IMG/VR virus record: IMGVR_UViG_3300025892_000205
Location: 1 to 20,567 of that record
Origin: a virus
Direction: 5' to 3' (one strand)
Length of the DNA stretch: 20,567 nt
The notes beneath the pieces were generated by a model. The model ran no database searches and had not been told where the DNA came from. It saw nothing but the letters and a program-made list of their open reading frames with translations. This document shows, piece after piece, positions 1,153-11,577 of the stretch (its first letter is position 1; each line of letters begins with the position of its first letter). The translations under genes and the position numbers were made by a program.

Positions 1153-3354
1153 ATGGCTACCTACGACCAGATTAGAGAAGATACAAATTCTACTATGGAT
1201 GAAGCAAAAGAAAATGAAACTATTTCTAATCTTGTTGCTAAAATAAACTCTAGATTTCAACAATGTGAAACTACTAGAGAAGATGATGAGGATAGATGGT
1301 TACAATCTTTCCATAATTATCGAGGAAGATATTTTAAAAATGTAGCTTTTAGAGACCATGAGAAATCAAGAGTCTTTGTTAAAGTAACTAAAACAAAAGT
1401 ACTAGCAGCATATGGTCAATTGATTGATGTATTGTTTGGTGCAAATAAATTTCCATTAACTATTCAAGAAACTAGAGTACCTGAAGGTATAGATGAGTAT
1501 GCTCATTTAAATCCATTAAAAGAACAAATGGGTATGAATGAAAATGAAGAACCTACTCCAGGTATCGAAGGTAATATGGATTATATTCCTGGTGAACCTA
1601 CTATGTCACAATCAAATGGTGGATTAGGTTTTCCTGGTGATGGAAATGATTTAGCTCCTGGTACAACTTTCAATGATTTAAATAATGATGCTAACTTAGG
1701 TTCTTTAGAAAAAGAATATGAAGAAGCAGACTTATCATCTGGACCAGCACCAAGTCCTGAGATGCCTCAAATTAAACCTGCACAAATAGCAGCAAGAAGA
1801 TTAGAAAAATTAGTATTAGACCAAATAGAAGAATCAAATGGTAGTGTTGAATTAAGAAATGCAATCTTTGAAGCTTGTCTATTAGGAACAGGAATTATTA
1901 AAGGACCATTTACATATAATAAAACTTTACATAAGTATACTAGTAATGGTAATAGTAGAGAGTACACACCTGAAACTGTTAAAATTCCTAAAATGGAATT
2001 CGTTAGTATATGGGATTTTTATCCAGACCCTAATGCTAGAAGTATGGAAGAAGCAGAATTTGTAATTCAAAGACATAGATTAAATAGAAATCAAGTTTTA
2101 GATTTAGCTAACAGACCTTTCTTTGACAAACAAGCAATACTTGAATGTTTAAGAATGGGTGCTAAGTATAATAAAAAATCTTGGGAAACAGATATAGATT
2201 TAGAAAAAAGTCAATACCCTGATATTGAAAATAATAGATTTGAAGTATTAGAATACTGGGGAACAATAGATGCATTAAGTGCTAGAGAAGAAGGATTAGA
2301 ACTTGATGAATCAATTGATGACATGGAAGAAGTTCAAGTTAATGTTTGGATGATTCGAGATAAAGTAATTAGAATTGTTCAGAATCCATTTAAACCTTTT
2401 AGAACTCCTTATCAATCTTTTGTATATGAAAAAAATCCATATACATTTTTTGGTATTGGTGTTCCAGAAAATATGGATGATGCACAACAAATTATGAATG
2501 GTCATGCAAGAATGGCAATTGATAACTTAGCATTAGCAGGTAACTTAGTATTTGATGTAGATGAATCTGCATTAGCTTCTAATCAAACTATGGAAGTATT
2601 TCCTGGTAAGATTTTTAAAAGACAAGCAGGTGTTCCAGGTCAATCTATTTATGGCTTAAAGTTTCCAAATACTGCAAATGAGAATATGCAAATGTTTGAT
2701 AAGTTTAGACAATTAGCTGATGAATCTACAGGAATACCATCTTACTCACATGGACAAACAGGTGTTCAATCTATGACAAGAACAGCATCTGGTATGTCAA
2801 TGTTAATGGGAGCAGCATCATTAAATATTAAAACAGTAATTAAAAATATTGATGACCAATTAATTAAACCTTTAGGTGAAGCAATGTTCCAATGGAATAT
2901 GCAATTCTATGAAGGTGACTTACCAATATATGGTGACTTAGAAATTAAAGCAACAGGTTCTTCTAGTTTAATGAAGAAAGAAGTTAGAAGTCAAAGACTA
3001 ACTATGTTCTTACAAACTGTACAGAATCCTGCTATTGCTCCTTTTGTAAGAATGTCAGAAGTAATAAAAGAATTAGCTTTCTCTTTAGATTTAGACCCAG
3101 CAGAAATTTTAAATACAAAAGATGAAGCAGAAATATACGCAAAAATAATAGGACAACAAAATGCTAACAAAGGAACTAGCCCAGAAGCTCCTATCCCTGG
3201 TGAACTCGGAGCAATGGGTGGTAATGGAGGAGTACCTCCAGAAGCTACAGGAGCAAACAACCCTGGAAATGGCGAAAGCCCAATCGGACCTGGTAATACA
3301 CCAATGCCAGGGGAGATGGAATTTACTGGACAGACTGAAGAACCTGCCCAATAA
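1153..3354 (+). CDS. Portal protein (P22-like)
   Basis: The 733-residue product has the length of P22-type portals (about 725). The portal forms the dodecameric ring at one capsid vertex through which TerL packs DNA and to which the tail adaptor attaches. Support: position between terminase and scaffold/capsid; the region around residues 205-340 (IAARRLEKLVLDQIEESNG, ACLLGTGIIKG, then FVSIWDFYPDP) which is characteristic of this family; and a central segment with PENMDDAQQIMN and the helical stretch near TRTASGMSMLMGAA. Residues about 120-205 form an acidic, Pro/Gly/Asn-rich insertion, probably a surface loop. The last 58 residues are a Pro/Gly-rich low-complexity tail whose bases also encode a second gene in the +1 frame (3161-3376). 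Start chosen at ATG 1153 behind AAGGA. Confidence 0.85.
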   Translation: MATYDQIREDTNSTMDEAKENETISNLVAKINSRFQQCETTREDDEDRWLQSFHNYRGRYFKNVAFRDHEKSRVFVKVTKTKVLAAYGQLIDVLFGANKFPLTIQETRVPEGIDEYAHLNPLKEQMGMNENEEPTPGIEGNMDYIPGEPTMSQSNGGLGFPGDGNDLAPGTTFNDLNNDANLGSLEKEYEEADLSSGPAPSPEMPQIKPAQIAARRLEKLVLDQIEESNGSVELRNAIFEACLLGTGIIKGPFTYNKTLHKYTSNGNSREYTPETVKIPKMEFVSIWDFYPDPNARSMEEAEFVIQRHRLNRNQVLDLANRPFFDKQAILECLRMGAKYNKKSWETDIDLEKSQYPDIENNRFEVLEYWGTIDALSAREEGLELDESIDDMEEVQVNVWMIRDKVIRIVQNPFKPFRTPYQSFVYEKNPYTFFGIGVPENMDDAQQIMNGHARMAIDNLALAGNLVFDVDESALASNQTMEVFPGKIFKRQAGVPGQSIYGLKFPNTANENMQMFDKFRQLADESTGIPSYSHGQTGVQSMTRTASGMSMLMGAASLNIKTVIKNIDDQLIKPLGEAMFQWNMQFYEGDLPIYGDLEIKATGSSSLMKKEVRSQRLTMFLQTVQNPAIAPFVRMSEVIKELAFSLDLDPAEILNTKDEAEIYAKIIGQQNANKGTSPEAPIPGELGAMGGNGGVPPEATGANNPGNGESPIGPGNTPMPGEMEFTGQTEEPAQ

Positions 3355-3376
3355 TGTAAGAGACATAGTAAAATAA
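3161..3376 (+). CDS. Probable overprinted gene in the portal tail, 71-aa helical protein
   Basis: This frame lies +1 to the portal and overlaps its last 194 bases, then runs 22 bases past its stop. Unlike the other shadow frames here, the product looks like a normal folded protein: 71 residues, helical, with mixed charge and regular hydrophobics (LTKELAQKLLSLVNSEQW, EEYLQKLQEQTTLEMAKAQ, VIHQCQGRWNLLDRLKNL, NNVRDIVK). The pattern 'LLxLVNSxxWxxxxEYLxxxxEQ...hxxQGxxxxLxxLxxLxxxV' resembles small proteins I recall just after portal genes in other phages. The portal frame over the same bases is only Pro/Gly/Ala/Asn low complexity, as expected if the other frame is constrained. AGGA at 3150-3153 precedes ATG 3161. 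Function unknown; virion or packaging accessory is a guess. Confidence 0.68.
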   Translation: MLTKELAQKLLSLVNSEQWVVMEEYLQKLQEQTTLEMAKAQSDLVIHQCQGRWNLLDRLKNLPNNVRDIVK

Positions 3377-3428: not shown

Positions 3429-4412
3429 ATGAAAAGAATAAAAGCAAAGAAAATGGCAACAGGTGGATTAATGTCAATGCCACCTTATATAGCTAAACAA
3501 GATAAAACATCTGAAGGTATTACACCTTATGATGTTAATACTCCTATGTCTGCTAGGAAAGGTTTAGCTTCAAGAGTTCTAGATTCATCAAGAACAAGAA
3601 TGAATAAAGGTGGAGAAGCTTTCCCAGATTTAAGTGGTGATGGTGAGATAACACAGGAAGATATTTTAATAGGTAAAGGTGTGATTAAAAAAGCTTATGG
3701 TGGAATAATGGAACGAATGAAATTTGGTGAAGGTGATTCGGTTAAAGATAAAATTGAAGCTAGAAAGTTTAAACAACTTGAAAGTATGAAGGAAGAAGGA
3801 TTAGAATTAACACCTAAACAAGAACAAGAATTAGAAGCTTATAAAGCAAAAGATAGAAAAGTAGAAATGGCTATAGGTGGAGTTGTAGGTAATGAATCTA
3901 TAAGTAAATATAATCAAAGACCAGATTATCAAGCATATGCTGAAGGTGATATTGTTGAAGACGAAATGCCTGAAGACGAAATGCCAGTTATGCAAGAATT
4001 AGAAACTGAAGAAGAATCTTTACTACAACCAATGGGTATGGATGATGAAATGCCTATGGATGATGAAGAAGATATTACTGATGAAGACTTAGAAGGTATG
4101 GATGCTATTATTGATACTTCAGCTTTATCAGATGAAGAAGAACAACTATTAGATGAAGCAGTTGATATGCATCCAGAACTAGAAGCTATTATTCCAAAAT
4201 TAGTAGCAACAGAATTTACAGATGATGGAGAAGTAGAAGGACCAGGTACAGGAACTTCAGACTCTATCCCAGCACTTTTATCAGATGGTGAATTTGTATT
4301 TACAGCAAAAGCAGTTAAGAATATTGGTGTAGACAAATTAAGAAGTATGATGAAAAAAGCAGAAGAAGATTATGATGCTGGTATTCAATCTCAAGAAGAA
4401 GAGATAGTATAA
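3429..4412 (+). CDS. Acidic portal-to-scaffold protein with EF-hand-like loop
   Basis: The 327-residue product has three parts. The basic N-terminus (MKRIKAKKMATGGLMSMPPY) and a region with several Gly-Gly motifs are followed by an almost perfect EF-hand/dockerin-type loop, DLSGDGEITQED (residues 67-78), with Asp at 1, Ser 3, Asp 5, Gly 6, Thr 9 and Asp 12. A very acidic middle (about 170-255, rich in Asp/Glu/Met) follows. The C-terminal part holds GPGTGTSDSIPALLSDGEF (271-289) followed by VFTAKAV, a motif I recall from several marine phage structural proteins. Its place between portal and scaffold suggests a head-assembly or minor virion role; calcium binding is inferred from the loop only. 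RBS AAGGAG, start ATG 3429. No enzyme signature seen. Confidence 0.78.
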   Translation: MKRIKAKKMATGGLMSMPPYIAKQDKTSEGITPYDVNTPMSARKGLASRVLDSSRTRMNKGGEAFPDLSGDGEITQEDILIGKGVIKKAYGGIMERMKFGEGDSVKDKIEARKFKQLESMKEEGLELTPKQEQELEAYKAKDRKVEMAIGGVVGNESISKYNQRPDYQAYAEGDIVEDEMPEDEMPVMQELETEEESLLQPMGMDDEMPMDDEEDITDEDLEGMDAIIDTSALSDEEEQLLDEAVDMHPELEAIIPKLVATEFTDDGEVEGPGTGTSDSIPALLSDGEFVFTAKAVKNIGVDKLRSMMKKAEEDYDAGIQSQEEEIV

Positions 4413-4549: not shown

Positions 4550-5479
4550 ATGAGTAACAAAAACGAAGAAGGAAGACAAGAAGCCGAAGCAAACCCTTAC
4601 AACAGGAAAAAATCTTGGCATACAGATGATGCTATGCCACAAGATAGAACCTCTGCTGATGAAGGTTTGTTTGTGCCAAACCCTGAAAGTAATCAAGGTT
4701 TATCAAATGCTACTGCCAATGGCAACCCAGATGATAATGCTGAGAATACTGATGCAACAATGGATAAGGTTCAAGACTCTGCACTAAATGTAGAATCTAA
4801 CCCTTATACAAAAGTTGATTATAAGAAAAGATATGACGACCTAAAACGATATTATGATAGGAAGTTAGGTGAATGGAACAGTAAAGAAAGTGACCTTAAA
4901 GTTCAACTTCAAGAGAACCGACCTAAGTACCAACCACCAAAATCGAAAGAAGAGCTTGAAGCTTTTAAAAACGATTATCCTGACATTTATGGAGTTGTGG
5001 AAACTGTATCTCACTTACAATCGCAAAATGAAGTTAAGACTTTACAAGACGAGTTAGAAGGTTTAAAGAAAGCAAATACTACTTTACAACAAAAGGAAGC
5101 TGCACTTGAACTTTCAAAATATCATCCTGACTTTGAGCAAATCAAAGAGTCTGATGATTTTCATAACTGGGCAGATACTCAGCCAATGGAAATTAAAAAC
5201 TGGATATATGAAAACAACTCTAATGGAGCATTAGCTGCACGAGCAATTGACTTGTATAAGAAGGACCGAGGACTTGGATTTGATAAAAAAACTACGAAGA
5301 GACAACCGAAGAATGAAGGTGCAGACTTGTTGGTTAAAACTAACGAACAAACTCAAGTGCCTGAATCTAAAGAACCTTTCTTCAAAAGGTCTGATATAAA
5401 AAAATTATCAGATGAAGAGTTTATGAAATATGAAAAAGATATTTTAAAAGCTCAAAGGGAAGGTAGAATTATAGATTAA
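4550..5479 (+). CDS. Capsid scaffolding protein
   Basis: The 309-residue product lies directly upstream of the major capsid gene, the standard place for a scaffold, which guides procapsid assembly and then leaves. The first 80 residues are polar and disordered (Asn/Asp/Glu/Pro). Two coiled-coil segments follow, about 90-122 (DYKKRYDDLKRYYDRKLGEW) and about 150-190 (LQSQNEVKTLQDELEGLKKA), separated by PKSKEELEAFKNDYPDIYGV. Then comes KYHPDFEQIKESDDFHNWA, a segment I recognise in scaffolds of marine podo- and siphophages, and a basic C-terminus, as expected for contact with the capsid shell. Start ATG 4550 has an excellent AAGGAGG five bases upstream. An AT hairpin spans its stop codon. Confidence 0.82.
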   Translation: MSNKNEEGRQEAEANPYNRKKSWHTDDAMPQDRTSADEGLFVPNPESNQGLSNATANGNPDDNAENTDATMDKVQDSALNVESNPYTKVDYKKRYDDLKRYYDRKLGEWNSKESDLKVQLQENRPKYQPPKSKEELEAFKNDYPDIYGVVETVSHLQSQNEVKTLQDELEGLKKANTTLQQKEAALELSKYHPDFEQIKESDDFHNWADTQPMEIKNWIYENNSNGALAARAIDLYKKDRGLGFDKKTTKRQPKNEGADLLVKTNEQTQVPESKEPFFKRSDIKKLSDEEFMKYEKDILKAQREGRIID

Positions 5480-9657: not shown

Positions 9658-11577
9658 ATGGCAGGATATACTAGACAGAGTTCATTAAATAATGGTGATA
9701 TAATTACAGCAGCATTATTTAATAATGAATATAATCAATTATTAGCTGCTTTTAATGTAGCTTCAGGACATAAGCATGATGGAACAACAGCAGAAGGTCC
9801 AGTCATAGGATTAATTGGAGATGCAGGTCTTGCTACTCCTTTAAATAAAATTTTAATTGATACTACTAATGATGAAATAGGTTTTCATATTGATGTATCA
9901 GGAACTTCTACAGAACAATTTAAATTATTAGATGGTGCAATTGTACCTATAACAGATAATGATATTGACTTAGGTACAAGTTCTTTAGAATTTAAAGATG
10001 CTTTCTTTGATGGTACAGTTACTTTAGATGGTTTAGTAATTGGTTCAGCTACAAGTATTACAGATGTAGATACAGATTTAACTTCAGTATCAGCAAGTGA
10101 TGATACATTAGCTAGTGCTAAAGCTATTAAAACTTATGTAGACGCACAAGTAACAGTACAAGATTTAGATTTTTCTGGTGATACTGGTGGTTCTCAAGCA
10201 GTTGATTTAGATTCACAATCATTAACATTAACTGGTGGAACTGGTATTGATACTACAGGTTCTGCACAGACTATGACATTTGCAATTGATTCAACAGTTG
10301 CAACATTAACAGGTTCACAAACTTTAACTAATAAAGTTTTAGATATAGATAATAATACATTATCAAATGTAGAAGTAGATAATTTAAAATCTGGAGTTTT
10401 AGATATAGATTTAACTTCAGTTTCTGCTTCAGATGATACATTAGCTTCTGCTAAAGCAATCAAAACATATGTTGACTCACAAGTAACAGCTCAAGATTTA
10501 GATTTTCAAGGTGATACAGGTGGTGCATTAAATATTGATTTAGATTCAGAAACTTTAACATTAGCTGGTGGTACTGGTATTGATTCTGTTGGTGCAGGTA
10601 ATGGAGTTACTTTTAATATTGATTCTACTGTAACTACATTAACAGGTTCACAAACTCTTACAAATAAAACTTTAACTACTCCAGTAATTTCAACAATATC
10701 AAATACTGGAACTATAACTTTACCAACATCTACAGATACATTAGTAGGTAAAGCTACAACAGATACTCTTACAAATAAAACTTTAACATCAGCAGTATTG
10801 AATGATACTATTTCAGGTACTTCAATTAAAGATGAAGATAATATGTCTTCTGATTCTGCTAGTCATTTAGCCACACAACAATCTATTAAAGCTTATGTAG
10901 ATACACAAGTAGCAACAGTTCCAACTGGAGATATTACTGAAGTTGTAGCTGGTACAGGTTTATCTGGTGGTGGTACAAGTGGAGCAGTAACTTTAACTGC
11001 AGATACTACAGCTTCAAGTACAACTACATTTACTAACAAAACTATTGATGCTAATGGTACTGGAAATAGTATTACAAACCTTGAAGTTGCAGATTTAGCT
11101 TCAGGTGTTCTTGATACAGATTTAACAAGTGTTTCTGCAAGTGATGATACTCTTGCTTCTGCTAAAGCAATTAAAACATATGTTGATAATAATGTTTCTA
11201 GTGTAACACCTTCAAGCACAACTACATTTACTAACAAAACTATTGATGTAGATGCTACTGGGAATTCAATTACTAATTTAGCTGATGCAAATATTAAAGC
11301 TGCAGCAGCTATAGATGCTACAAAAATTCATGATGGGTCAATATCTAATACAGAATTTGGATATTTAAATGGTGTTACTTCAGCTATTCAAACACAGATA
11401 GATAGTAAACAAGCAACTATTGATGCTTCTGCTAGATTAAATGCTAATCTAGTTGGTGATGGTTCAGTAGACAATACAGAATTTAGTTACATTAATGGTG
11501 TAACTTCTTCAGTACAAACTCAATTAGATGCAAAAGCAACTAATGGATTTAGTATAGCAATGGCAATCGCTTTGTAA
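9658..11577 (+). CDS. Long tail fibre protein with internal repeats
   Basis: The 639-residue product begins with LNNGDIITAALFNNEYNQLL and SGHKHDGTTAEG, an N-terminal form typical of marine phage fibres that attach to the tail. The shaft is Thr/Ser/Asp/Leu-rich with repeated units: LTSVSASDDTLASAKAIK followed by TYVD occurs three times (residues 141-162, 252-273, 489-510), with STVxTLTGSQTLTNK and TTFTNKTIDxxxTGNSITNL units between. Near the end, two copies of NTEFxYxNGVTSxxQTQxD precede the C-terminus GFSIAMAIAL. Such low-complexity beta shafts form trimers. It probably gives the distal reach for receptor contact. RBS AGGAGG is encoded in the preceding gene's last codons. A promoter follows the stop. 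Confidence 0.78.
   Translation: MAGYTRQSSLNNGDIITAALFNNEYNQLLAAFNVASGHKHDGTTAEGPVIGLIGDAGLATPLNKILIDTTNDEIGFHIDVSGTSTEQFKLLDGAIVPITDNDIDLGTSSLEFKDAFFDGTVTLDGLVIGSATSITDVDTDLTSVSASDDTLASAKAIKTYVDAQVTVQDLDFSGDTGGSQAVDLDSQSLTLTGGTGIDTTGSAQTMTFAIDSTVATLTGSQTLTNKVLDIDNNTLSNVEVDNLKSGVLDIDLTSVSASDDTLASAKAIKTYVDSQVTAQDLDFQGDTGGALNIDLDSETLTLAGGTGIDSVGAGNGVTFNIDSTVTTLTGSQTLTNKTLTTPVISTISNTGTITLPTSTDTLVGKATTDTLTNKTLTSAVLNDTISGTSIKDEDNMSSDSASHLATQQSIKAYVDTQVATVPTGDITEVVAGTGLSGGGTSGAVTLTADTTASSTTTFTNKTIDANGTGNSITNLEVADLASGVLDTDLTSVSASDDTLASAKAIKTYVDNNVSSVTPSSTTTFTNKTIDVDATGNSITNLADANIKAAAAIDATKIHDGSISNTEFGYLNGVTSAIQTQIDSKQATIDASARLNANLVGDGSVDNTEFSYINGVTSSVQTQLDAKATNGFSIAMAIAL
10078..11187 (+). repeat. Three identical 22-residue fibre repeats, diverged in DNA
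   Basis: Copies at 10078-10143, 10411-10476 and 11122-11187 encode the same 22 residues. Codons differ at 9 (copy 1/2), 8 (2/3) and 11 (1/3) of 22 positions, all synonymous, including AGT/TCA serine switches. A degenerate fourth unit (SDSASHLATQQSIKAYVD) lies between copies 2 and 3. Confidence 0.85.

Follow-up and report, generated by a model that had tools for sequence, protein, structure and literature searches.

A gene that has never been annotated, designated X here, is present within the portal gene of abundant ocean phages, where it is nested almost wholly in the last 64 codons of the portal in the +1 frame. X is a real gene; there is no expression or proteomic evidence for it. The window in which it was found (the whole stretch of DNA analysed) comprises positions 1-20,567 (20,567 nt) of the IMG/VR record IMGVR_UViG_3300025892_000205 and is part of an HMO-2011 type phage. 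Taken as a whole, the observations are probably best explained if X was a gene following the portal that was overrun once by the portal, both being kept and later separated.

The features discussed are collected in Table 1. The coordinates, length, phase, AGGA and extension beyond the portal stop proposed for X in a first-pass annotation of this DNA are all correct by sequence reading, 194 nt of the frame lying within the portal gene and 22 nt past its stop codon. The portal scores 96.9 bits against SU10_portal PF23899 (cut-off 30) and matches those of isolates HTVC103P/104P at 75% and that of HMO-2011 at 47%. It is thus a member of the HMO-2011-type portals (phrog_332), from which it differs by the tail DNA shared with X.

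Table 1. Features of the portal-X region in the window
Feature	Position	Strand	Remarks
Gene X	3161..3376	+	71 aa (71 codons), ATG to TAA, frame +1 to portal
Portal protein	1153..3354	+	733 aa, HMO-2011 type (SU10_portal, phrog_332)
Overlap, portal reading	3160..3354	+	P/G-rich C-terminal tail, motif ...SPIGPGNTPMPGEMEFTG; probably disordered
TAG in frame with X	3149..3151	+	12 nt (four codons) 5' of X ATG (direct reading)
AGGA, Shine-Dalgarno-like	3150..3153	+	Within portal Ile-Gly codons; seven bases 5' of X ATG
Portal P-G-E codons (cca ggg gag)	3307..3315	+	+1 reading gives the invariant Q-G of X (cag ggg)
Next gene	3429..4412	+	327 aa; GPGTGTSDSIPALLSDGEFVFTAKAVK segment in common with tape-measure families; context only

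Judged on the window alone, the open frame of X is only mildly unusual. The probability of finding it open under synonymous shuffling of the portal tail was P = 0.11, and another nested +1 run in the same window, taken as a comparison, reaches 53 codons. The case for X made initially, on the asymmetry between the two frames in a single genome, was therefore borne out by relatives and not by single-genome statistics, which are insufficient. Relatives were collected by scanning IMG/VR with the 71-residue product, which led to 104 confirmed cases (80 kept); portal scans added more. The X frame was open, began with ATG and stood in the +1 phase to the portal in all 154 first-round loci that reach that point, its start lying 172-199 nt before and its end 16-52 nt after the portal stop. 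Among distinct overlapping sequences, 209/209 have X open with an ATG start, and no premature stop, which would have counted against the gene, was found in X of the relatives. It is the relatives that make X decisive, since the product of the open-frame probabilities across 20 divergent portals is ~2e-23. A chance open frame is thereby ruled out in spite of the P-value obtained from the window.

The pattern of substitution points in the same direction. Within the window's own group (77 distinct sequences), identity of synonymous codons in the portal is 0.94 over the overlap vs 0.76 elsewhere, whereas amino acid identity of the portal is 63% over the overlap vs 81% in the rest. X has 71% amino acid identity with ordinary synonymous divergence, and nucleotide differences in the overlap fall mostly at third codon positions of X. 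The comparison of conservation by frame suggested at the outset thus comes out in favour of X (71% vs 63%), with synonymous change in the portal suppressed. Selection was quantified in four groups by an OLGenie-like count, with intervals from bootstrapping over codons; these are somewhat narrow because sequence pairs are not independent. dNN/dNS for X was 0.40 [0.33-0.49] in the window's group and 0.39, 0.23 and 0.42 in the three others, the upper 95% bound being 0.60 or less in all four. X is under purifying selection in its own frame. For the portal, dNN/dSN over the overlap was 1.13 [0.86-1.57] in the window's group, not different from 1; the other groups gave 0.65 and 0.48 (95% intervals below 1) and 0.73 (not different from 1). 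Both frames of the overlap are nevertheless selected, X in all groups and the tail through a motif conserved in all.

Individual codons of the portal also bear the mark of X. The counts for codon FINGERPRINTS given here (Ile and Gly codons) refer to loci and were not deduplicated. Where X overlaps, the Ile codon of the portal motif IGTG is ATC in 306 loci, ATT in 14 and ATA in 0; in loci without X overlap it is ATA in 77/96. ATA is never used under X because it would place a TAG in X. In every overlapping locus (362/362) the Gly codon bearing the AGGA reads GGA or GGG, against a background of 60% GGT in the rest of these portals. The AGGA initially read as a ribosome-binding site is indeed present, but on its own it is weak evidence since it sits in conserved portal codons (IIG). 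Given the TAG in frame with X upstream of the ATG, X needs its own start, and synthesis of X as a frameshift fusion with the portal was ruled out as very unlikely on the basis of this stop 12 nt 5' of the ATG. Initiation at the ATG is inferred from conservation and has not been measured.

These data bear directly on the suggestion that X is a spurious frame, kept open only by the amino acid composition of the tail. P/G/N-rich tails seldom create stops in the +1 frame and the window by itself gives a one-in-nine or so chance of an open frame, both of which the suggestion accommodates. It does not accommodate the conservation of X while the portal frame changes, the constraint on the ATG and on the Ile codons, the joint probability over divergent portals or the existence of free-standing homologues of X (below). 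The comparative data already refute it and we give it practically no credence.

The product of X is predicted to be a small, all-helical protein, as had been proposed from its sequence. The AlphaFold2 model has four helices (residues 4-14, 17-39, 43-60 and 62-70; mean pLDDT 93), and a motif, W..(M/L)EEYL...QG, is conserved. Searches of Pfam, PHROGs and PDB provided no named family matching well and no solved relative. A gene of ~70 codons is, however, found directly behind the portal in HMO-2011, roseophages and rhizobial and gammaproteobacterial phages, and X aligns end to end with its product, the W, YL, QG and subsequent leucines coinciding. The hhalign score between X and this portal-following family was 78 (probability 97-99%), with a maximum of 17.5 in 100 column shuffles; against the profile of the gammaproteobacterial set it was 74 (shuffled maximum, 19.5). 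Position agrees as well, both lying at the 3' end of the portal gene. In a Foldseek search of BFVD the best matches to the X model included phage proteins of 70 and 76 residues (TM 0.86 and 0.83); these agree in length with the Rhizobium and CHOED genes, although no entry names were shown. Profile comparison, then, establishes X as a homologue of the small gene that stands free after the portal in other phages (AFV50589-like in HMO-2011). The likeness to portal-following genes noticed at first sight is thereby substantiated, and homologues outside overlapping contexts, whose absence would have been damaging, do exist.

The closest known cases are those of HMO-2011 (AFV50589), the Roseobacter phages CRP-2/207/235/212, RHph_N3_19 (Rhizobium), phiM6 (Sinorhizobium) and the Vibrio phage CHOED (CHOED_090), each with a homologous ~70-aa protein in the same place that shares the W..YL..QG pattern with X and may have a similar predicted fold. 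Their copy either stands apart from the portal gene or shares 0 to ~100 nt with it; in the window, by contrast, 194 nt of X lie inside the portal gene, and X had not been annotated before. For HMO-2011 (L161), the record leaves the small gene 13 codons short of what its conserved start would imply. The place of X between the terminase/portal genes and those of the scaffold-/coat-region is kept in phages with little else in common. For this reason X may take part in assembling the head, probably together with portal or packaging components, a function inferred from gene order only and for which we see the chances as even.

The portal tail over X is of low complexity, its P/G/N/E composition being as originally described. 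It has a conserved motif, GxGxGxIGxGxxPxPGExxFSG, which is also present in portals with a free X. Tail profiles of overlapping and HMO/CRP-type phages match with a score of 60 (shuffles, 18), those of L289-type phages match overlapping tails at 60.7 (against 15.5 shuffled) and those of the gammaproteobacterial set at 28 (against 15.8 shuffled). X alone does not dictate the tail, since portal-frame readings of randomly back-translated X reached a tail score of 16.8 at most. These scores indicate that the tail is homologous in the overlapping and free-X arrangements. It is probably a flexible segment: in the AlphaFold2 model of the portal it has no secondary structure (pLDDT ~28), although disorder is only suggested by this because the whole model is poor (mean pLDDT 48.7). 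The idea that the tail is a mere by-product of the overlap is too weak, as its motif is conserved and kept where X no longer overlaps.

Which of the two frames is older was assessed from their distribution and from codon usage. The portals of Y3 and StenR_269 (26-27% identical) are the deepest outgroups and root the portal tree. Both have a homologue of X behind the portal (with the outgroup profile, 28 bits in Y3 and 23 in StenR_269, where shuffling gave at most 14 and 9, respectively), and both portals end in a Q/K/E-rich, helical-looking stretch without a P/G tail. This distribution favours X as older than the tail, which supports the original proposal that a standard downstream gene was overrun by extension of the portal. 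Codon usage favours the opposite order. Within the overlap, codons of the portal frame are used much as in the remainder of that gene (rho 0.62), which is not the case for those of X (rho -0.51), and a native-like frame paired with a frame of non-native codon usage is usually taken to mean that the latter is the newcomer. However, this test is confounded by phase because third positions of X are first positions of the portal, so that a tail rich in P, G, A and E necessarily makes the third bases of X GC-rich. The same effect explains the local GC peak. The region is indeed as rich in G and C as had been remarked, with values of 0.472 in X and 0.500 in the overlap vs 0.323 in the window as a whole; just 0.2% of 216-nt windows are equally GC-rich. 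Third-position GC is 62% in X vs 13% in the portal core, from which it appears that the composition of the tail is itself kept by selection.

The reverse history, in which the tail came first, X was born inside it by +1 overprinting and duplication later gave rise to free copies, draws on this native-like codon usage and on BLAST, which finds X only in this portal family and in one place in Y3. Against it stand the tree-rooting phages, which have X behind the portal and no tail, the confounding of the codon test, and the nature of the tail, a low-complexity and probably disordered partner as expected for the newer reading. We regard this history as unlikely and retain X as the probably older gene.

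In the portal-core tree rooted on Y3 and StenR_269, the ingroup consists of three clades, and overlapping lineages occur in every one. Forms with complete or partial separation fall within these clades: the L289 type and L444 (99/98, 100/99), a CHOED/Slicky01/MQM1 set and an HMO-2011/CRP/Rhizobium set. The nesting of L289 and L444 in overlapping clades has 95-100% support; the node joining clade C is weak (86/48). At least five state changes are required, either one gain and four losses or three gains and two losses, and state counts alone do not choose between these histories. A single gain is favoured by the register, which the overlapping lineages share. The QG codons of X begin 1 nt after the PG codons of the tail in 314/314 distinct overlapping DNAs, so that the overlap is most simply of one origin. 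Had it arisen independently in several lineages through separate portal extensions, a possibility that fits the count of five equally well, different registers would be predicted, and none was seen; moreover, the tail motif is common to all three clades and to free-X phages. We consider independent origins very improbable. The relatives point instead to a single entanglement of the two genes, followed by several separations in which neither protein was lost.

Separation that preserves both products needs two copies of the DNA, which makes tandem duplication or unequal recombination likely. Duplication, or unequal recombination between relatives, was probably the route, an inference for which no DNA scar is available: a scar of duplication was sought in the free loci and not found (mean z 0.13), and these loci contained no X remnants in the +1 frame of free tails, no tail remnants in free X and no DNA repeats between them. 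The remnant and repeat searches gave modest signals only in the HMO-2011 group. Portal ends in this group overlap the start of X in the same +1 phase and resemble the linker of the overlapping forms (HMO-2011 itself, 15.3 bits; 0/200 random readings as high), a likeness partly explained by the conservation of X at that point. A deletion model, in which the second half of X would have been fused to the tail at a CCAGGGGA microhomology, was rejected since the N-terminal half of X is also homologous to free X.

The missing scar is compatible with a different source for free X in L289-type and gammaproteobacterial phages, namely horizontal transfer in place of duplication of an overlapping copy. 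L289-type X scores at least as well with the profile of gammaproteobacterial X as with that of the overlapping clade, so transfer is not excluded for this type. The nearest BLAST relatives of L289 and L444 X are nevertheless the overlapping X of their own clade (28-40% identity), and the tails of both strongly match overlapping tails. Transfer is possible but doubtful, and duplication of the overlapping copy is preferred.

The proposed course of events would then be as follows. X would at first have been a separate gene behind the portal. A single extension of the portal frame through X, in the -1 frame of X, may then have taken place on the branch leading to the HMO-2011/CHOED-type portals. 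It would have given the portal a flexible tail rich in P and G, in which the bases coding for PG also serve for the QG of X. Selection would subsequently have maintained the two readings, preserving the sequence of X and, in the tail, the composition and a short motif. X would be translated from its own ATG at 3161 by means of the AGGA in the portal codons, while other ribosomes translate the portal. At least four lineages (about four) would have regained separate genes with both products retained. We lean, with some reserve, towards regarding this as a natural cycle of gene entanglement and release, in which one overgrowth is followed by later duplication and each copy keeps one protein. If this is true, one phage group holds the states before, during and after entanglement. 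A series of this kind, which permits the two members of an overlapping pair to be compared across all three states, is rare and allows tests of the origin, cost and undoing of overlaps, for example of which protein changes faster once freed.

Virus gene pairs overprinted in +1 on the same strand are a known kind (reviewed in PMC8227390). As here, they encode two proteins on one DNA, with ordered and disorder-prone partners and asymmetric constraint; what sets the present overlap apart is its inferred later reversal in several lineages, with neither product lost. A paper on the HMO-2011 group (PMC9038755) mentions portals without any word beginning 'overlap', and no report of a conserved gene inside the portal of such phages, or of release from an overlap, was found in the open-access literature searched. 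The Pelagibacter phages HTVC103P, HTVC104P, HTVC115P and HTVC033P have the same nested gene in the same register, and their records annotate only the portal. With X, very abundant marine phages (HMO-2011-type pelagiphages) gain a conserved gene of the structural region that had escaped annotation, a warning that nested genes are missed by gene callers even in core modules.

Several further loci deserve mention. X is intact but unannotated in these isolates (L157, L172, L158 and L159 for HTVC103P, 104P, 115P and 033P) and also in CRP-345 (L168) and Aeromonas phage 1233 (L494). It lies 157 nt downstream of the portal in CRP-3 (L491; 3215-3430), where another small gene stands between the two, and 287 nt downstream in L497. 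In L596, where the portal ends at 3189, the tail is conserved and no recognisable X is nearby, possibly reflecting loss or a diverged copy. In the window itself, the gene at 3429-4412 has its tape-measure-shared GPGTGTSDSIPALLSDGEFVFTAKAVK segment despite the podovirus-type module, an ATG-open +1 frame of 53 codons (4626-4787) is nested in a 309-aa gene at 4550-5479, and a tail-fibre-like protein at 9658-11577 contains repeated LTSVSASDDTLASAKAIKTYVD segments.
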